From contig NZ_JAUCGR010000002.1 of the NCBI RefSeq assembly GCF_030362815.1, forward strand, positions 310,001-374,000: a DNA stretch of 64,000 nt. The letters run 5' to 3'. The position numbers and the translations under genes are program-made. The notes under the pieces are model-generated. The model worked only from the letters and a program-made list of their open reading frames with translations. It searched no databases and was not told the DNA's origin. This document shows, one piece after another, positions 34,054 to 43,447 of the stretch; the first letter of the stretch is position 1; every line of letters begins with the position of its first letter. Source of the stretch: Cellulomonas edaphi. GTDB lineage: Bacteria > Actinomycetota > Actinomycetes > Actinomycetales > Cellulomonadaceae.

Positions 34054-34671
34054 CTACCTCGGCCGCCTGATCGTCGTGCGCACGCGCGTCACGGACGGCC
34101 GCGCCGGGACCGACGAGAAGCCGAAACCGACCGGGGGTTCGACGGCCGCGAGTGCCCCGCACGGCTCCCCGGCCCACGACGCGTCGGCGGCCACGATCTC
34201 GTGCTGGTCCGAGGCGGCGTAGGTCTCGGTGCGCCCGCCGCCGGCCGACCCGCGCGTCCGCACCCCGGTGAGCACGACGCGAGCGACGGGGTCCGCGGCG
34301 GCGGCGAACCACTCGGCCGAGGCCAGCGCGGCGGGCACCGCGGCCAGCAGTCTGCCCACCCCCGTGCGCGCTCCGATCCGCAGCGCGGCATCGAGCGGCC
34401 CCGCGGTGACGCGCCACGTCCTCGACCGTGCGTCGCTCGAGACGCGCACGTCCACCACGTGCACCGCGTCGAACGCGTAGGTCGCGGAGATCTCGTCGGC
34501 GACGTCCGCACGCGGCGCGAGGAGGGTGCGGTGGCCCGACGCGTCCTCGACCATCACGTCGGCGAACGACCCGTACGGCGAGTCGAGCCACCGTCCGACG
34601 ACGAGGCGGCGTCCGCTCGCCGTGCCGAGACCCGCGATGTGCCCGCGGTAGACGTCGACGCGGTCGGGCAT
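34054..34671 (-). CDS. Conserved hypothetical protein
   Basis: A 205-residue soluble-looking protein without signal peptide or membrane helix. It begins MPDRVDVYRGHIAGLGTASG and has YAFDAVHVVDVRVS and a basic C-terminus. No catalytic motif is recognised. ATG start at 34671, 45 bases after the radical SAM gene. The function cannot be assigned; co-transcription with the radical SAM gene is plausible from spacing. Confidence 0.65.
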   Translation of the reverse strand: MPDRVDVYRGHIAGLGTASGRRLVVGRWLDSPYGSFADVMVEDASGHRTLLAPRADVADEISATYAFDAVHVVDVRVSSDARSRTWRVTAGPLDAALRIGARTGVGRLLAAVPAALASAEWFAAAADPVARVVLTGVRTRGSAGGGRTETYAASDQHEIVAADASWAGEPCGALAAVEPPVGFGFSSVPARPSVTRVRTTIRRPR

Positions 34672-34716: not shown

Positions 34717-35763
34717 TCAGAACAGAGCCGGTTGCAGCACGCTCGCCGCCGCCGGGCTCTCCGGCGCCACCGGCATGCTGCCCTCCGGGTACGACCCCTC
34801 CGCATCGAGGCGGTGACCACCGCCGGGAGTCAGCCCGTGCCTGGTGAGCAGCGGTCGGACGCGCTGGTCCAGCCACCTGGCGTACTCGCGCGGTGCGTAG
34901 GCGCCGGAGCCGTACAGCGAGCGGTACCGGGTCACGATCTCCGGGCGGTGCTCGGCCAGCCAGGCGTAGAAGAGCGGCTTCACGGGCCCGCGCAGGTGCA
35001 ACGGGAGGATGGTCACGCCCGTCGCACCTGCCTCGGCGAGCTGGCCCAGCAGCGAGTCGAGCTCGTCGCGCCCGTCCGTGAGCCACGGCATGACGGGGGC
35101 CACCATGACGCCGCACGGCAGGCCCGCGTCGCGCACCGCGCGGATCAGGTCGAGCCGCGCGCGTGGGGTCGGCGTGCCGGGCTCCATCGCCTGCTGGAGG
35201 CCCTCGTCGCCGATCGCGAGCGAGACGCCGATGCCGACGGGCACCCTCTCGGCCGCGGAGGCGAGCAGCGCCAGGTCGCGCCGCAGCAGCGTGCCCTTGG
35301 TGAGGATCGACAGCGGCGTGCGTGCGTCGGCGAGGGCCTCGATGATGCCGGGCATGAACGCGTACCGGCCTTCGGCCCGCTGGTACGGGTCGGTGTTGGT
35401 CCCGAGAGCCACGGCCTGCCGCCCCCACGTCCGGCGGGACAGCTCCGCGCGGAGGACCTCCACGACGTTGGTCTTGACCACCACCTGCGTCTCGAAGTCG
35501 CGGCCCGCGTCGAGGTCGAGGTACTCGTGGGTCGGTCGGGCGAAGCAGTAGGCGCAGGCGTGCGTGCAGCCGCGGAACGGGTTGACCGTCCACCGGAACG
35601 GCATCGAGGAGGCCTCGGGCACCTTGTTCAGCGCGCTGCGGGCCAGCACCTCGTGGAACGTGATGCCGGCGAACTCGGGCGTGCGCACGCTGCGGACGAG
35701 GCCCCGCAGGCCCAGGCCCGGCAGCGCCGCGTCCTCGTCACCCCGCTGGTCATCCCATCGCAT
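34717..35763 (-). CDS. Radical SAM protein, Rv2578c/SplB-like family
   Basis: A 348-residue iron-sulfur protein. The SAM cluster motif CTHACAYC (CxxxCxxC) lies in NPFRGCTHACAYCFARPTHE, followed by the family's EYLDLDAGRDFE and GTNTDPYQRAEGRYAF. It belongs to the group that includes M. tuberculosis Rv2578c, which has distant likeness to spore photoproduct lyase. From memory Rv2578c also lies between aspS and hisS, so this gene is likely part of the ancestral order. A perfect SOS-box-type palindrome ends 10 bases upstream of its ATG, which suggests LexA control and a DNA-damage role. The exact reaction is unknown. Confidence 0.9.
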   Translation of the reverse strand: MRWDDQRGDEDAALPGLGLRGLVRSVRTPEFAGITFHEVLARSALNKVPEASSMPFRWTVNPFRGCTHACAYCFARPTHEYLDLDAGRDFETQVVVKTNVVEVLRAELSRRTWGRQAVALGTNTDPYQRAEGRYAFMPGIIEALADARTPLSILTKGTLLRRDLALLASAAERVPVGIGVSLAIGDEGLQQAMEPGTPTPRARLDLIRAVRDAGLPCGVMVAPVMPWLTDGRDELDSLLGQLAEAGATGVTILPLHLRGPVKPLFYAWLAEHRPEIVTRYRSLYGSGAYAPREYARWLDQRVRPLLTRHGLTPGGGHRLDAEGSYPEGSMPVAPESPAAASVLQPALF

Positions 35764-35772
35764 CGACCCATG

Positions 35773-35786
35773 CGAACACGTGTTCG
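35773..35786. promoter_or_regulatory. SOS box (LexA operator) candidate
   Basis: CGAACACGTGTTCG is a perfect 14-base palindrome that matches the Gram-positive and mycobacterial LexA consensus CGAAC-N4-GTTCG at every fixed position. It ends 9 bases before the radical SAM start codon, where a bound repressor would block transcription or early elongation. Confidence 0.8.
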
Positions 35787-35808
35787 AACGCGTGTCAAGC
35801 AGCCGCGC

Positions 35809-36357
35809 TCACGCCTGCGTCGAGACCACCTGCGCCGAGAGCGCGGGCAGGTCGTGCAGGGGATCGCGCCCCTCGCCCTTCCAGCTGCTCGTGAGCTCCA
35901 CCACCTGGTCGCCCGCGAAGACGACCGAGCTCGCCCCCACCGCGCCCGTCCATGCCGCGCCGTCCTGGTCCGTGTAGCGGACCGACGGCTCGACCACCCC
36001 GGGCGCGTCGCCGTCCACCTGCGCGCGGAGGTCCTTGCCCTCGGCGGACGACGCCGGCTGGACGGTCACGAACAGCATGGCCCCGTCCACCAGGCTCGTG
36101 TCGGTGGGCCAGATCTCGCACTCGCGCACCCCGTCGGCGCCCGCCGACTCGAGGCTGCCCTCGACGCGCCCGACCTTCAGGCCCAGGGCCGTCTCGACGT
36201 CGGCGCGGTCCATGCCGCACACGAGGTCGGCCGTGCTGGCGGGGCGCGACGGGATCTCGGTCGGCATCGGTTCCTCCTTCGTGGACGACGTGCAGCCGGC
36301 GACCGCGGCACCGAGCGCGGCCGCGGCGAGCAGGCCGAGGATCGGGCGCGCCCTCAC
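35809..36357 (-). CDS. Putative lipoprotein next to type VII locus
   Basis: A 182-residue protein with a lipoprotein signal (VRARPILGLLAAAALGAAVAGC) and a DUF3558-like small domain: LVCGMDRADVETALGLKVG, CEIWP and a late FAGDQVVELTSS. Two cysteines would be able to pair. The GTG at 36357 overlaps the stop of the 700-residue protein gene by 4 bases, so it is translationally coupled to the type VII-associated unit. Role unknown; an envelope accessory of the same unit is inferred. Confidence 0.75.
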   Translation of the reverse strand: MRARPILGLLAAAALGAAVAGCTSSTKEEPMPTEIPSRPASTADLVCGMDRADVETALGLKVGRVEGSLESAGADGVRECEIWPTDTSLVDGAMLFVTVQPASSAEGKDLRAQVDGDAPGVVEPSVRYTDQDGAAWTGAVGASSVVFAGDQVVELTSSWKGEGRDPLHDLPALSAQVVSTQA

Positions 36358-38456
36358 AGCGGCAGGCCCCACTGGTCGCGGTACGTGCCGATGACGCGCT
36401 CGGCGACGATCGTCTTCATCGCCGACTTGTTGTACCAGTCCTGGTAAGCGCGCGAGCCGGTGTCGAAGTGCGGCGGCGGCCCGGGCTGGATCGTCCCCGC
36501 GGGCGGCGGCGTGAAGTCGTAGCCGCGCTCGGCGGCCCCCCGGACGGCCGCGTCGTCGAAGTAGCCACTCTGCAGGAGCTGGTTCATGGTCGCGTCGGCG
36601 AGCTGCGTCTGGACCTTCTGGCTGAGCTCGGTGTACGTCGCTCCCGAGTCCGTGGACGCGCTGTCCTTGATCTGGTCGAGGGTCGCGTCCTTGAGCTGGT
36701 CGACGCCGAAATTGAGCCACTTGGGCTTGATCTCGGGGATGTACGGGATCGCCGAGGCCAGGCTGAGGGCGTCGGCGATGGCCTCGGCGCGCTTCTTCTG
36801 GAACTCCTCGTCCGACTTGTCGCCGCCGTAGGCCGTGTCCAGCGTCCAGCCGATCACCTGCGACGCGTTGGTGATCGCGGGGTTGGAGTCGTCGCTGACG
36901 CCGCCGGTGATGAAGTTGGCCGCCGCGTTGGGCTGCTGCACCTTCGCGTCCGTCAACCCCTTGTTGACCGCGAGGTTCTGGGCCTGGAACAACCCGGTCA
37001 TGAAGGGGGTCAGGTCGTTCTGGTTCTCCCCCAGCGTGCCGACGATCTTGGCCAGCAGCGCCTTGTCGAGCACGGCGCCGTACGGCATGTCGGGGTCGAA
37101 GAGATCCCCGCTGCCGGGCTGCGACCAGCCCTGCGTGAGGTCGTCGTGGTCGTCCAGGATCACGCGGTAGGCGTCGGCACCGTAGGAGGCGAGCATCTGC
37201 GCGACGTGCGCGCGCAGCCCGTCCGACATCTTCCAGCCCTCGTGCTGGCCGAACACGAGCCACCCGTCCGACTGGCCCTCGCCGGTCTTGTCGCCGATGA
37301 GCGCGAACGTCTGCGACGCGAGGTCGGCCGAGAGCCGTCCGGACGCCTCGCTGTTGCGCAGCCGCGTCGTCGCGGCCTCCAGCGCGGTTCCCAGGGCGCC
37401 GCCGTTGGTGGCGTCGACGTCCCAACGCCGGTCGAGCACCAGGTACGCCAGCCGCTCGGAGACGCTCACCTCGTGGCCGTCGATGGTGACCTTGCGGTCG
37501 TCGCCGCCACCGAAGAAGTGCTGCGCGGCCTCCGGGTTGTTCCCGAGCGCCGCCATGATCCCGGCCAGCGGGTCGCGGAACCGCCGACCGTCCGCGTCGT
37601 AGACGCCCGCGTTCGTCGTGCCGTCGCTGCCGCGCGGCTGCCAGACGGCTCCGCGCGCGTCGCCGAGCTCACGCTCGTGGTCGTAGACGCCCTCGGCCAC
37701 CTGGTTCAGGAACGGGGTGCCGTACCGGCCGGCGTTCAGGAGCACCGTCAGCGCGTTGGCGCGGTCCACCCGCCCGTCCCCGCCGTCGTAGTAGGGGGAC
37801 GTCGGCACCTCCGCCTCGATCGTCTCGAGCCAGCTCTGCGCGTAGTCGGACGGGAGCGCCAGGTCACCGGTGTTGCGGGTCGCCGTGGCGACCGTCGTCG
37901 ACATGCCGTTCAGCAGCTTGCCGTACCAGGCGTTCTTGGCGTCGAGCTCGGCCTGCGTCGAGCTGCCGTCCTGGTAGGAGCGCTGGTACCCCAGGGTGAT
38001 GACGACGTCCGCGAGCTCGTCGGCGCTCAGCGCCCTCGCGAACCCCGCGGCGTAGTACGGGTCGTCCTGCATCTCGATGATCTGCTCGATGAGGTCGTCG
38101 TCCGGGCGACCTCCGTCGCGCAGCGCCTCGGCCGCCTCCTGGCCCGCCTGCTCCGCCTTGTCCGGGGCCATCGAGGAGATCTCGGTGACGTCGTCGAACT
38201 GGACGGTCCCCGTGGGCCACGTCGGGCTCGACCCCTCGAGGGCCTGCGCCTTCGCGAGCCGCCTGCGCGCGTCGGGCAGGACGTCACGGGCCCAGTCGGC
38301 CGCGGTCTGCATCCCGTGGGTGTCCGACGTCGCGAGGTTGTAGCGCGACAGCGTGGTGCGCAGGGAGCTGCGGGCAGAGTCGAGCGTGTCGATGCCGCTG
38401 ATCAGACCGTTGACGAGCTGCTGCATGCCCGCCACGTCGATGATCGCCTTCGCCAT
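36354..38456 (-). CDS. 700-residue type VII-associated protein, possible secreted substrate
   Basis: No signal peptide. Residues 1-75 are a helical, Trp-containing region (MAKAIIDVAGMQQLVNGLIS ... AADWARDVLPDARRRL) of the size of an ESX-type N-terminal module. The rest is largely alpha-helical, with DPYYAAGFARALSADELADV, HFFGGGDDR, a Pro-rich patch (TPPPAGTIQPGPPP) and an uncharged C-terminus DQWGLPL. It resembles large actinobacterial proteins near WXG100 genes (possibly DUF6571), but I cannot confirm a family. No toxin motif is recognised. It lies directly downstream of the 96-residue gene (TGACATG junction) and is coupled to a lipoprotein gene. Confidence 0.75.
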   Translation of the reverse strand: MAKAIIDVAGMQQLVNGLISGIDTLDSARSSLRTTLSRYNLATSDTHGMQTAADWARDVLPDARRRLAKAQALEGSSPTWPTGTVQFDDVTEISSMAPDKAEQAGQEAAEALRDGGRPDDDLIEQIIEMQDDPYYAAGFARALSADELADVVITLGYQRSYQDGSSTQAELDAKNAWYGKLLNGMSTTVATATRNTGDLALPSDYAQSWLETIEAEVPTSPYYDGGDGRVDRANALTVLLNAGRYGTPFLNQVAEGVYDHERELGDARGAVWQPRGSDGTTNAGVYDADGRRFRDPLAGIMAALGNNPEAAQHFFGGGDDRKVTIDGHEVSVSERLAYLVLDRRWDVDATNGGALGTALEAATTRLRNSEASGRLSADLASQTFALIGDKTGEGQSDGWLVFGQHEGWKMSDGLRAHVAQMLASYGADAYRVILDDHDDLTQGWSQPGSGDLFDPDMPYGAVLDKALLAKIVGTLGENQNDLTPFMTGLFQAQNLAVNKGLTDAKVQQPNAAANFITGGVSDDSNPAITNASQVIGWTLDTAYGGDKSDEEFQKKRAEAIADALSLASAIPYIPEIKPKWLNFGVDQLKDATLDQIKDSASTDSGATYTELSQKVQTQLADATMNQLLQSGYFDDAAVRGAAERGYDFTPPPAGTIQPGPPPHFDTGSRAYQDWYNKSAMKTIVAERVIGTYRDQWGLPL

Positions 38457-38815: not shown

Positions 38816-41800
38816 TCACGGGACCGGCACCTGGACGCTCTGCCACGCCCCGGCCAGCGACAGGATGCCGCGACCCGGCGCCGCGGCGCCGATCACCGAG
38901 CGCGGGAGCCGGAGGCCGAAGACATCGCCGTCGTTCGGCGACGCCGGCGCGAGCAGCAGGCCGCTCCGAGACTTCTTGAGCGCCGGGGCGGGGCCGCGGT
39001 AGGAGCCGGACAGCTCGTCGGTGGTCCCGCCCGCGACGACGAGGCCCGGTCGGTCGCGCAAGGCGCCCAGGTGCTCGACCACCGCGTCCGCCAGCGCGCC
39101 GTCCGTGCCGAGCAGCTCGAGGTCGTCGACGAGCAGCAGCGTCGGTGGTCCGTCGCCCGGGACCAGGCGAGCCAGCAGCTCCTTGATCTCGTCGCGCGTC
39201 GACTCGAGCGTGAGCGCGCCCACCACGCCGGGCAGGTCGCGCAGCGGGCTCCGGCGCGGCGTGACGATCCCGACCGACCACCCGCGCTCGATCGCCGAGG
39301 TGCCCATGGTCACGAGCGACGTGCTGCGCCCGGACCGGCGCGGCCCGACCACGAGCACACCCGGGCCGTGGTCCTCGGCCTCGAAGCCGAACAGCGTCAG
39401 GCTGTCGCCACCGACGCCCGCCGGCACCGCCGCGGGCGGCAGGTCGGCACCACCGAGCCGCTGGGCCTCCGCGAGCGTGATCCGCGTCGGCAGGTCGTCC
39501 ACCCGGAACGGCACCTGGGCGGCGGGTGTCGGTCCGCGGTCGGCCGCGCGCGCCGTGGCGTCGCGCGCGATCCGCTGCAGCGCGGCGACCTGCTCCGCGC
39601 CGCCCACGGCGGCGTCCAGCACGCACAAATGGACCTCCTGGCTGCCCACCGACCGGAACGCCCGGCCGTCCGCCATGTCACCGGGGACCTGGCGCGGGCT
39701 GAGGCCGACGGCCGAGTAGTCGCCGGCGTCCGGCATGCGCAGCATCACCCGGTTCTCGGTGAGGGCCGCGATCCGCCCGACGAGCATGCTGCGGTCACCG
39801 CTGAGCACCACCTTGACCCCCGCGCCGGGTCCCTCCTGGAGGATCTGGGTCCAGAGGTCCACCAGCACGCCCGAGTCGTAGTCCTCGAACGCCTGGATGA
39901 AGCCCTCCCAGCGGTCCAGGAGCACCACCAGGTACGGCAGGCGCTCGTCGGGCGCGACGTTCGCTCGCTGCTCGGTCACGTCCGCGAACGACTGCTCGGC
40001 CAGCAGCCGCTGGCGCCGCGAGATCTCCGCCCGCAGGCGGCGCGTGAGGCGCGCGAGGCGGTCGGGCTGGTCGCGACCGACCACCGCACCGGTGTGCGGC
40101 AGGGCGACGAGCGGGAGCAGCGCGTTGTTGCCGCAGTCGACGCCGTACAGGTGCACGTCCCGCGGCGAGGTCCGCGTCCCGATCGCGGCGGCGAAGGTCC
40201 GCAGCGCGGTGGAACGCCCCGAGCGCGGCGCGCCGACGACCGCGAGGTGACCCCCGACGGCGATGTCGTGCACCGCGACGTCCCGGCGCTGCTGGGACGG
40301 CAGGTCGACCAGGCCGTACGGGAGCGCGAACGGCGATTCCGGCAGCGCGGTCCCGGCCTGCTGAGCGAGGTCGTCGAGGGTCACCGTGGCGGGCAGTGCG
40401 GGGAGCCACGGCGGATGCGGGGCGGCCACCCCGGCCAAGTCGGCCGCTCCCCGCACCGCGCTGACGAGCGCAGCGAGGTCGGTGGGTACCTCGATGTCGT
40501 CGTCCGCCGCCGCGGCGCCCGGCGACTGCAGGGCGCGCCCGAGCCCGGGCCAGCCCAGGGGTGCGACGGCCACCGCACCGCCCGCCGAGGCGCTCGGCGG
40601 CCGCCCCCCGACGCGAGAGGCCTGGAACGCGACGAGGCTCGAGTGCCCCAGCCGCGCGTACGCCCGGCCCGGCAGGCTCTGCGCGATCTCCGCCGCCTCC
40701 GGCCCCTCGATGACGTCCTGGCTATCGTTGCGGTCGGTCACGCGCAGCGCGATGCGCAGGTTGGTGTTCGACTTGATCTCGGCGCTGACCACACCGGCGG
40801 GGCGCTGGGTCGCGAGCAGCAGGTGCACGCCCAGCGACCGACCGCGCCGGGCGATGTCCACCAGGCCGGTGACGAAGTCGGGCAGCTCGGCGACCAGCGC
40901 CGCGAACTCGTCGATGACGATGAGCAGCCGCGGCATGGGCTCGTCGTCCGGACCACGCGCGGCGAGGTAGTCCTCGATGTCCTTGGCGCCCGCACCGGCC
41001 AGCTGGTGCTCGCGCCGCCGCAGCTCGGCGGCGAGGCTCTCGAGCGCGCGCGTGGTCAGGTGCGTGTCCAGGTCGGTCACCATGCCGACCGTGTGCGGCA
41101 GGTTGTTGCAGTCCTTGAACGCCGCGCCGCCCTTGTAGTCGACGAGCACGAACGTCATCTCGTCGGGACGGTTGCCGACGGCGAGCGACGCGATGAGCGT
41201 CTGCAGCAGCTCGGACTTGCCCGAGCCCGTGGTGCCCGCCACGAGGCCGTGCGGGCCGTCGGCGCTGATGTCGACCGTGAACAGGCCGTCACCGGTCTCG
41301 CCGATCACCGCCCTCGTGGTGCGGCCACCGCCGGCCCAGCCCCGGGCGACGGCCTGCGCCTGCGGCGGGTCGAGCTGCAGGACGTCGAGCAGCCGCGACG
41401 ACGACGGGAGCGTCGACGCCAGGTCCTCGGTGCTGATGTCCCGGATCGGGGACAGGGCCCGCGCCAGGCGCTCGAGCCACGGTCGGTCCACGACGTCGGC
41501 GCGCACGCCCTCCACCGGGTCCCGACCCGTGACGGACACGGAGGCGCCCTCGGGGTGGAGCCGCACGACGGCCTGGCACTCCTCGGGGAGCTGTCGCTCC
41601 TGCTCGTCGAGGCACAGGAAGATCACACCGACCGCGGGTCCCTCGCGCAGCAGCGTGACGAGGCCGGGCAGCAGCCGGATGCGCCGTGCCCCGTCGAGCA
41701 CCACCAGGACGGGCGGCGGGAGCAGCGTCGTCATGGTGGAGAACCCACCACCGTCGCCCCGCGCCGCCTCGCGGCGCCGCTCCACGAGGTCGAGGAGCTC

Positions 41801-43423
41801 CGCGATCCGCCGTGCCGTCGTCTCGTCGTCGTTGCCGACCGAGACCAGCGGCCCGGCGTCGCGTCGCAGGTGCGGCAGCCACCGCACCCAGCGCCAGTCG
41901 GCCTCCGCCTCGGGCTCGGACAGCAGCACCACCGTGACGTCGGCCGGCGAGTGGGAGGCGGCCACCTGCGCCACCATCCAGCCCGCCACCCGGCGCCGGT
42001 CGTCGTCGGTGCCGGCGACGCCGGTGACCCCGACGCGCGCGAGCGGCACCGCGACGGGCACGTCCGCCGCCGTCCAGTGCTGGACACGCTCGTGGTCCTC
42101 CCCGGCGGGGTCGCGCAGCGACACCTCGCTCGGCACGTCCGCCGTGCCGACCCGCGCGAGCATCCAGTCGGGGTCGGTGCGCCGCCGCTCCCACAGGCGC
42201 GAGCGCGGGCCCGTGGCGAACAGCAGCACCGTGGCCGGGTCGGGGAGGTCACGGCGCCGCGCAGCGCTCTCGCTGGTCAGGGCGGCGTAGGCGTCGGCCT
42301 CGACCCGCGCCGTGCGCTCCGTGAACGAGCGCACGGCATCCACGTGCTGGCCGCGCCGGGACTTGCGGGACGACACCCAGTTGGAGATCGCCATGGCCGG
42401 CGACAGCGCCATGATGATGAGCGAGTAGGGCGACCTGGTGAAGTAGAACATCGCCCCGCCCATGATCACCGGGAGCAGCATCATCGCCAGGGGGAACGCC
42501 TGCTTGTCGGGCGAGCGGGGCTCGGCGGGCAGCCGGAACTCGTGCGTGCGCACCGGCGGCAGGAGGCGGGGCGGGCGGTTGAAGTCGAGGGTCGCTCCCT
42601 CGGCGCTGGGCGACAGGCTCGCGTCGGGCGGCTCGTGCTCGGCGAGCTCCAGCACGGTGTCGCCCACCACCAGCGGCGCCCCGGTCTCCCACGGGCGCGC
42701 CGTGGTCAGCGGCAGCCGGCCCAGGTGGACGAACGGCCGGTCCTGCTCCGGGTCGATCTCCTCGACGCCGGCCGTCGCGGCGCGTGCCTGCTCGAGCCGG
42801 GCGGCGTAGCGCCGGCCCTTGCGCGCGGCGCCGGCCGGCGCCCCCGGGCTGCGCACGACGATGGGCCCGTCGAGCGGCCGCATGCGCCGCGGCGCGGGGA
42901 ACGTCCGGGCGGCCAGCGCCGGGTCCGGCGTGACGACGACCGATCCGTCGACGCCGACCTCGAGAATCACGGCCCTGTCGGGCACGTCGTCGAGCCGGAC
43001 GGAGGCCGTCGATCCGGCGCCGATCTCGTGGTGGCCCGGCGCCAGGCGGTGCACGGTCCCCGCCCCGCGCCCGGACACGACGCGGATCTCGCACGCGCCG
43101 TAGGGCTCGTCCCACGGGTCGTCGACGGCACGCCCCAGGCCGACCAGGTGCCCGTGGCGCAACGGGCACGCCTCCACCGCCTGACCGAGGTCGAGCTCCC
43201 GCCCCCGCCACCACAGCGGCACCGCCGCGTTCGCGTCGGACGCGGTCACCTGGACGACGCCCAGGTGGCCGGACCCGCGCGGCACGACGCTCTGCTGCTC
43301 GTAGCGGACGGCACCGGCCAGCGCGGCAGCGAGGTCGCCCACCCGCGCGCCCGGGGCGCACTCGGCGACGACGTCGACGAGCGCGTCGGCGCCGGGCACG
43401 GCAACGCTCAAGATGAGACGCAC
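38816..43423 (-). CDS. eccC: EccC/EssC-type FtsK/SpoIIIE ATPase with FHA-like domain
   Basis: Motor of a type VII secretion system. Of 1535 residues, 1-100 form a ubiquitin-like or FHA-associated N-terminus, 110-160 an FHA-like segment (GHHEIGAGSTASVRLDD), and 310-350 two membrane helices. A DUF and three FtsK-type ATPase modules follow. Module 1 is canonical: Walker A AGTTGSGKSE (730-739) and Walker B LLIVIDEF (833-840). Modules 2 and 3 have GAPRSGRST (about 1064) and GPRRSGRST (about 1360), with Arg replacing the Walker lysine, as in inactive regulatory modules. GTG start at 43423 after GGAAGGA. EccB, EccD, EccE and mycosin genes are not in the window. Confidence 0.93.
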   Translation of the reverse strand: MRLILSVAVPGADALVDVVAECAPGARVGDLAAALAGAVRYEQQSVVPRGSGHLGVVQVTASDANAAVPLWWRGRELDLGQAVEACPLRHGHLVGLGRAVDDPWDEPYGACEIRVVSGRGAGTVHRLAPGHHEIGAGSTASVRLDDVPDRAVILEVGVDGSVVVTPDPALAARTFPAPRRMRPLDGPIVVRSPGAPAGAARKGRRYAARLEQARAATAGVEEIDPEQDRPFVHLGRLPLTTARPWETGAPLVVGDTVLELAEHEPPDASLSPSAEGATLDFNRPPRLLPPVRTHEFRLPAEPRSPDKQAFPLAMMLLPVIMGGAMFYFTRSPYSLIIMALSPAMAISNWVSSRKSRRGQHVDAVRSFTERTARVEADAYAALTSESAARRRDLPDPATVLLFATGPRSRLWERRRTDPDWMLARVGTADVPSEVSLRDPAGEDHERVQHWTAADVPVAVPLARVGVTGVAGTDDDRRRVAGWMVAQVAASHSPADVTVVLLSEPEAEADWRWVRWLPHLRRDAGPLVSVGNDDETTARRIAELLDLVERRREAARGDGGGFSTMTTLLPPPVLVVLDGARRIRLLPGLVTLLREGPAVGVIFLCLDEQERQLPEECQAVVRLHPEGASVSVTGRDPVEGVRADVVDRPWLERLARALSPIRDISTEDLASTLPSSSRLLDVLQLDPPQAQAVARGWAGGGRTTRAVIGETGDGLFTVDISADGPHGLVAGTTGSGKSELLQTLIASLAVGNRPDEMTFVLVDYKGGAAFKDCNNLPHTVGMVTDLDTHLTTRALESLAAELRRREHQLAGAGAKDIEDYLAARGPDDEPMPRLLIVIDEFAALVAELPDFVTGLVDIARRGRSLGVHLLLATQRPAGVVSAEIKSNTNLRIALRVTDRNDSQDVIEGPEAAEIAQSLPGRAYARLGHSSLVAFQASRVGGRPPSASAGGAVAVAPLGWPGLGRALQSPGAAAADDDIEVPTDLAALVSAVRGAADLAGVAAPHPPWLPALPATVTLDDLAQQAGTALPESPFALPYGLVDLPSQQRRDVAVHDIAVGGHLAVVGAPRSGRSTALRTFAAAIGTRTSPRDVHLYGVDCGNNALLPLVALPHTGAVVGRDQPDRLARLTRRLRAEISRRQRLLAEQSFADVTEQRANVAPDERLPYLVVLLDRWEGFIQAFEDYDSGVLVDLWTQILQEGPGAGVKVVLSGDRSMLVGRIAALTENRVMLRMPDAGDYSAVGLSPRQVPGDMADGRAFRSVGSQEVHLCVLDAAVGGAEQVAALQRIARDATARAADRGPTPAAQVPFRVDDLPTRITLAEAQRLGGADLPPAAVPAGVGGDSLTLFGFEAEDHGPGVLVVGPRRSGRSTSLVTMGTSAIERGWSVGIVTPRRSPLRDLPGVVGALTLESTRDEIKELLARLVPGDGPPTLLLVDDLELLGTDGALADAVVEHLGALRDRPGLVVAGGTTDELSGSYRGPAPALKKSRSGLLLAPASPNDGDVFGLRLPRSVIGAAAPGRGILSLAGAWQSVQVPVP

Positions 43424-43447
43424 GGGATCCTTCCGGGGCAACGGTCA

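Follow-up and report, generated by a model that had tools for sequence, protein, structure and literature searches.

A LexA-type operator at a radical SAM gene

We analysed a 64,000-nucleotide stretch of the Cellulomonas edaphi genome (contig NZ_JAUCGR010000002.1, positions 310,001 to 374,000; hereafter the window), focusing on a minus-strand gene for a radical S-adenosylmethionine (SAM) protein and on the palindrome CGAACACGTGTTCG that precedes it. A first-pass annotation, made from the sequence alone, had read this palindrome as a LexA-type SOS box, and its position, its exact match to CGAAC-N4-GTTCG and the 9 bases (35764-35772) that separate it from the ATG (35763-35761) were all borne out. 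The CxxxCxxC radical SAM gene named by the same annotation is likewise present, as a 348-residue open reading frame (ORF) carrying C66-x3-C70-x2-C73. Pfam Radical_SAM matches the protein, and a score of 506.8 bits with the NCBIfam model NF038135, whose cut-off is 430, makes it a clear member of the Rv2578c family; with the PA0069 model (NF033668) it reaches 231/360 bits, under the cut-off.

Within the window, CGAACACGTGTTCG is the only exact CGAAC-N4-GTTCG site. Allowing up to two mismatches yielded 60 sites against 51.9 expected, a count reached by 13 of 100 shuffles and so no commoner than chance; such loose counting was dropped as uninformative, leaving as evidence the exact match together with its conservation. 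Across the whole genome (3.37 Mb in 5 contigs), six exact sites were found, against two for a reversed control pattern. By our reading, four of the six lie at the starts of plausible SOS genes: the window gene, a DUF222/HNH gene that we take to be 13E12-like, an imuA' gene, and a SAV_6107-like HEPN gene followed by dinB. Another falls within the coding region of a second dinB and looks like chance, and the remaining site adjoins a gene that reads as amylase-like from its sequence. The genome also encodes lexA, with three one-mismatch boxes in 82 bases lying 287-355 bases 5' of its likely start, and recA, with a one-mismatch box upstream; LexA and the same motif at lexA, recA, imuA' and HEPN-dinB are thus found together in one genome. 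The cluster upstream of lexA perhaps serves a divergent gene too. A LexA-controlled pair of a hypothetical gene and a dinB gene has been described on a Streptomyces venezuelae plasmid (PMC9380542).

Conservation of the box across actinobacteria

Orthologue searches covered 200 genomes of the family, 119 of the order and 118 of the class, in overlapping sets, and by our tally returned 228 distinct matches; at E up to 1e-60, no orthologue was found in 60/200, 70/119 and 69/118 genomes, respectively. We read 165 of the 228 loci; the others are one fragment (G398) and 62 matches from other genera of the window's own family. Scored at its ten specified bases, the best site had no mismatch in 94 loci, one in 56, two in 14 and three in a single locus. 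The alignment of orthologue upstream regions that the first-pass annotation proposed as a check therefore recovers the same box, with at most two mismatches in 164/165 loci. Background was estimated in two ways: in the first 85 loci, eight same-size stretches taken elsewhere in the locus yielded an exact site once and a one-mismatch site 12 times among 674, with mostly three mismatches, and 800 shuffles of the other 80 loci gave no exact and five one-mismatch sites.

Spacing is conserved along with sequence. The gap between box and start is 8-10 bases in 150/165 loci (77/85 and 73/80 in the two sets), and all 48 genes found in the window's own genus were read, each with a box of at most one mismatch. 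The main spacing exceptions are loci without a placeable start codon and seven Streptomyces-like loci, which retain the box and a -10-like sequence but have in addition a leader, about 31 bases long or longer, that carries GGAGG in 7/7; Streptomyces sp. BHT-5-2 likewise has the box, the -10-like sequence and an added leader with GGAGG. An Arthrobacter plasmid copy, read from its sequence, has a site one letter off (GAAC-N4-ATTC) at the same spacing. Conservation 5' of orthologues settles that the box is real, and its recurrence across the class, in a lineage whose representative here carries lexA with boxes of its own, agrees with the LexA-type reading: the palindrome is almost certainly a LexA operator that places the gene under LexA control.

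LexA motifs of other lineages precede homologous genes

The PA0069 family was sampled as seven plasmid loci together with the best 80 of 595 relatives from named genomes, a selection that favours those close to the query; of 67 plasmid records, 40 were listed and 10 of these fetched. Loci were grouped by record title as alphaproteobacterial, Pseudomonas, xanthomonad or other, one title being Acidobacteria. Among the best 80, an exact GTTC-N7-GTTC lies within 300 bases in 24/25 alphaproteobacterial loci (one mismatch in the other one), and an exact CTGT-N8-ACAG occurs in 20/20 Pseudomonas/Stutzerimonas loci, with 0/225 exact sites in shuffles of these two groups. On plasmids, the alphaproteobacterial motif is exact in 5/6 alphaproteobacterial loci, the sixth having a one-mismatch site by reading, and the Aeromonas locus has an exact gammaproteobacterial motif 12 bases 5' of a start. 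LexA thus appears to control homologous genes by way of three unrelated operators, a picture that agrees with published LexA control of splB (PMC3323433, PMC8565304) and of the S. venezuelae gene vnz_31145 (PMC9380542).

These distributions bear on the simplest alternative, that the palindrome is a chance match or the site of another regulator. About two exact sites per genome are expected from the reversed-pattern control, and at least one of the six, that inside the dinB coding region, looks random; but position and sequence are conserved over 165 loci, and unrelated LexA motifs stand before the distant homologues, leaving this explanation exceedingly improbable.

More distant radical SAM relatives include 'mobile pair protein B' on Bacteroides plasmids and proteins of Acidianus two-tailed viruses.

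A predicted leaderless promoter encloses the operator

The sequence ahead of the window gene reads TTGACA, 17 bp, TCGCAT, 6 bases, ATG. Column counts over only the 77/85 loci with a box within 14 bases of the start gave a matching consensus: TTGAC starting 12 bases 5' of the box (T 72, T 53, G 61, A 47 and C 57 of 77) and TCGAAT at the box end, its final T present in 74/77, with the two hexamers 17 bp apart. At that offset, TTGACA is matched in at least four of six letters in 102/165 loci, versus 0-5/165 at six shifted offsets. The spacing of the -10 hexamer, with 7 nt to the A of the ATG, leads us to expect transcription to start on that A, and leaderless transcription would account for the constant distance between box and start codon. 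GGAGG or AGGAG occurs within 20 nt of the start in 1/78 loci that have no added leader. With good confidence, we predict that the operator is nested in the gene's own promoter and that the mRNA is leaderless, points that the first-pass annotation had not noticed.

SOS operators of S. venezuelae carry the same palindromic CGAAC-N4-GTTC-type core before damage genes (PMC9380542); the window box differs in being nested in the promoter, with a gap to the start codon fixed at about 9 bases.

A lyase fold without the lyase residues

The distant SplB likeness suggested by the first-pass annotation holds at the level of fold and fails at the catalytic residues. In structure searches (Foldseek, VIA-align) with the predicted model, whose mean predicted local distance difference test (pLDDT) score is 88.3, spore photoproduct lyase (SPL) occupies the first six places, followed by MiaB, RlmN, pyruvate formate-lyase activase and viperin. 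SPL is also the best PDB sequence by profile, weakly (E 0.015), and a single-sequence search of the PDB with the window protein gave only a chance-like match. The cluster ligands C66, C70 and C73 are kept in 47/47 aligned members, and no other cysteine is invariant. In a MAFFT alignment built with intermediate families, the hydrogen-donor cysteine of SPL (C140 in Gt, C141 in Bs) falls on T122, a threonine in 47/47, and the relay residue Tyr98 (Gt) falls on F74, a phenylalanine in 46/47 and a tyrosine in 1/47. When a single SPL sequence was compared by hhalign, its Cys140 region fell on W113 (probability 41%), also not a cysteine; the MAFFT alignment was preferred because the T-x-D motif lines up in it.

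Compared with SPL (PDB 4FHC and relatives), the window protein therefore has Cys140 and Tyr98 replaced and an extra C-terminal tail, and photoproduct-lyase chemistry is not to be inferred for it. An ordinary SOS-controlled SplB-type lyase that repairs ultraviolet thymine lesions would fit the nearest fold and the weak profile match, and authors have named homologues SplB and proposed such repair (PMC3323433, PMC9380542). Replacement of both residues, with only the cluster ligands invariant, argues against it, as does the absence of a clamp-like tail from four SPL or SPL-family proteins, which end in IEYFT or ILYWT. We regard such a lyase as quite unlikely, and a chemistry different from that of SPL as likely, judging from these alignments.

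Long inserts starting at the third cluster cysteine were seen in 17/85 orthologues (L009, L012, L013, L017, L019, L023, L027, L029, L030, L036, L037, L053, L072, L073, L075, L077 and L079), whose matched spans reach 465-667 residues versus about 315; they are consistent with inteins, and NCBIfam models intein-containing members (NF038136).

A C-terminal motif resembling clamp-binding peptides

Peptides that bind the replication (beta) clamp, DnaN, follow a QL[S/D]LF consensus of the Q-x-x-[L/I/M]-[F/L] type. The window protein ends in ...SVLQPALF, within a segment of low confidence (pLDDT <50 at residues 340-348), an ending that the first-pass annotation had not noticed. We counted the pattern Q-x-x-[LIMV]-[FLIMW] where it lay no more than three residues from the C-terminus and found it in 73/80 loci of the named-genome scan (best 80 of 595; QLSLF, QMALF, QLSLL and others), in 7/7 PA0069-type plasmid loci and in 42/85 actinobacterial loci, comprising 35/50 outside the window's family and 7/35 within it. 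The actinobacterial counts are pattern-dependent, earlier patterns having given 24/85 and 39/85; a terminal hydrophobic pair such as LF is kept in 34/35 window-family loci. Among controls, the pattern occurs in 0/47 Escherichia coli proteins and, of 42 window ORFs selected by third-position GC content (GC3), in the window protein only. The linker ahead of the tail varies while the ending stays constant, as expected for a short binding motif, and PA0069-type proteins resemble the window protein in having both LexA motifs before their genes and such a tail.

In ImuB, the clamp motif is QLPLWG, and its mutation abolishes ImuB-clamp foci (PMC10421592). The window protein resembles ImuB and other clamp clients as an SOS protein with a short, glutamine-led hydrophobic motif of this kind, and differs in that its motif, a predicted one, forms the very end of a radical SAM enzyme. 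A literature search found no report linking these radical SAM proteins to the clamp, which is weak evidence of novelty because subscription journals lay largely outside the search. From the recurrence of the motif, clamp docking seems reasonably likely for the family; for the window protein itself, whose QPALF is less canonical, we give it an even chance.

Relation to published regulons

Lists of LexA regulons have included SplB-like radical SAM genes from 2012 (PMC3323433) or earlier, with no tested job found for them. LexA regulation of splB (SplB/COG1533) is reported in alpha- and beta-Proteobacteria (PMC3323433) and in Bacteroidetes (PMC8565304), a parallel to the radical SAM homologues described here in that each lineage uses its own LexA motif. 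In the available text of these papers the protein figures as a photolyase or a repair protein, and neither the replaced SPL residues nor a clamp-like tail is mentioned. The radical SAM gene vnz_31145 of S. venezuelae is a LexA target by chromatin immunoprecipitation, and mitomycin C induces it 19.97-fold (PMC9380542). Regulation of SplB-like genes by LexA is therefore already in the literature; the present analysis adds the promoter architecture, the replacement of SPL residues and the predicted clamp hook.

No tested function was found in the literature for the Rv2578c (NF038135) or PA0069 (NF033668) families. The first-pass annotation took Rv2578c to be a listed SOS gene, and a 2002 list reportedly includes it, but the listing was not confirmed here: no text was found naming both Rv2578c and LexA, in a search that left subscription journals largely outside, and '2578' is absent from the main text of a Mycobacterium tuberculosis mitomycin study (PMC8151990). 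A 2026 Streptomyces paper regards the DNA-repair link of the family as speculative and identifies the orthologue as the integration site of prophage Samy, by which the gene is inactivated in the native host; the terms 'DNA damage' and 'mitomycin' occur nowhere in the available text of that paper (PMC12924846).

A working model and the points against it

Promoter architecture, loss of SPL residues and the predicted clamp hook together lead us to a working model, which we consider the best available, of an SOS enzyme at the replication clamp rather than a photoproduct lyase. Its foundations are read from sequence, namely the operator, its conservation, the promoter layout, the residue replacements and the tail motif; LexA binding, induction, the leaderless start, clamp binding and a DNA substrate are what we infer from them. 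RecA-driven cleavage of LexA frees SOS promoters. At this gene, operator-bound LexA would lie over the spacer and the -10 hexamer and block RNA polymerase, until DNA damage triggers RecA-stimulated LexA self-cleavage and the promoter is freed. Transcription would then begin on the ATG, and the mRNA would be translated leaderless into a radical SAM enzyme predicted to have the SPL fold without its catalytic cysteine and relay tyrosine. The flexible C-terminal tail, judging from its motif, could recruit this enzyme to DnaN at damaged or gapped forks, where it may act on DNA. LexA control through a nested promoter, with a role in the damage response and leaving the clamp step aside, is highly probable on these sequence grounds. 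The broader proposal, that Rv2578c and PA0069 proteins form a widespread SOS class of clamp-tethered radical SAM enzymes with a direct DNA-lesion reaction distinct from that of SPL, and with leaderless LexA promoters in actinobacteria, is more tentative, and we place it slightly below even. Conserved LexA control and the predicted clamp hook would link the family to replication-coupled repair, and if the tail binds DnaN, many bacteria would use radical SAM chemistry in responding to damage at the replication fork.

Several observations weigh against this model. Among the best 80 of 595 relatives, the other beta-, gamma- and unplaced loci have the exact gammaproteobacterial motif in 9/24 testable cases (L267, one of 25 such loci, was too short upstream to count), with 1/120 in shuffles, and none of 10 xanthomonad loci matched any of the LexA motifs tried exactly, a xanthomonad motif included. 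The window's own -10 hexamer (TCGCAT) is weak. The published S. venezuelae box, TCGACCGTTCGCTC at -61 (PMC9380542), is unlike those of the Streptomyces-like loci, which are mostly GGAACA-N2-TGTTCT near -45, and vnz_31145 is a candidate for the same gene whose identity with the Rv2578c family could not be shown. From the prophage-broken Streptomyces gene, its authors infer no significant fitness cost (PMC12924846). Loss of Cys140 alone does not exclude lyase activity, given that the Clostridium acetobutylicum SPL has its cysteine at another position (PMC5368176). Finally, the tail is degenerate in the window's own family, where the strict form is limited to 7/35 and most proteins end in EQVLF-like or SETLF-like sequences.

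This last point favours a further alternative, in which LexA control is real, the damage-response substrate of the enzyme is RNA, a nucleotide or a protein, and the hydrophobic C-terminus has nothing to do with the clamp; the ranking of MiaB, RlmN, pyruvate formate-lyase activase and viperin, radical SAM enzymes with such substrates, after SPL by structure is also in its favour. Yet SPL, a DNA-acting enzyme, is clearly the nearest fold, and Q[LM]x[LI][FL]-like ends recur behind variable linkers, both in Pseudomonadota and in those Actinomycetota that do not belong to the window's family. We consider this alternative unlikely, if less so than a photoproduct lyase, and retain an SOS enzyme docking at the clamp as the working model.

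Features and neighbouring genes

Table 1. Features at the locus and LexA-type boxes elsewhere in the genome; positions are those of the window unless a locus label (L) is given.
Feature	Position	Strand	Basis or remark
Rv2578c-family radical SAM protein, 348 residues, CxxxCxxC at residues 66/70/73	34717..35763	-	NF038135, Pfam Radical_SAM
Clamp-binding-like C-terminal QPALF, residues 344-348	34720..34734	-	low-confidence tail
Predicted transcription start, A of ATG	35763	-	inferred from spacing, 7 nt past last -10 base
Predicted -10 hexamer TCGCAT	35770..35775	-	overlaps operator; 17-bp spacer to -35
LexA operator (probable), exact palindrome CGAACACGTGTTCG	35773..35786	n/a	sequence and orthologue conservation
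Predicted -35 hexamer TTGACA	35793..35798	-	sequence and offset conservation
Lipoprotein-like gene, 182 residues	35809..36357	-	upstream of radical SAM gene, same strand
205-residue gene	34054-34671	-	downstream of radical SAM gene
Exact box	L001:1501-1514		overlaps possible start codon of DUF222/HNH gene
Exact box	L002:1501-1514		67 bases 5' of first in-frame ATG, ImuA' gene (NF058630)
Exact box	L006:1501-1514		5' of SAV_6107-like HEPN gene, then dinB
Three one-mismatch boxes	L007:1060-1141		cluster upstream of lexA

Neither flanking gene has a Pfam or NCBIfam match. The lipoprotein-like gene ends 45 bases before the radical SAM gene, and its rejection as a member of the same unit (0/84 other loci, flanks up to 1500 bases) agrees with the earlier expectation that it does not share the control. 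The 205-residue gene was likewise rejected as an operon partner, being present in only 1/84 other loci (L063, 62.9% identity) within the same flanks. Further upstream, a DUF6571 protein (36354-38456, minus strand) lies near a long ORF at 38816-43441 that reads as FtsK/EccC-like from its sequence, which suggests a type VII secretion neighbourhood.
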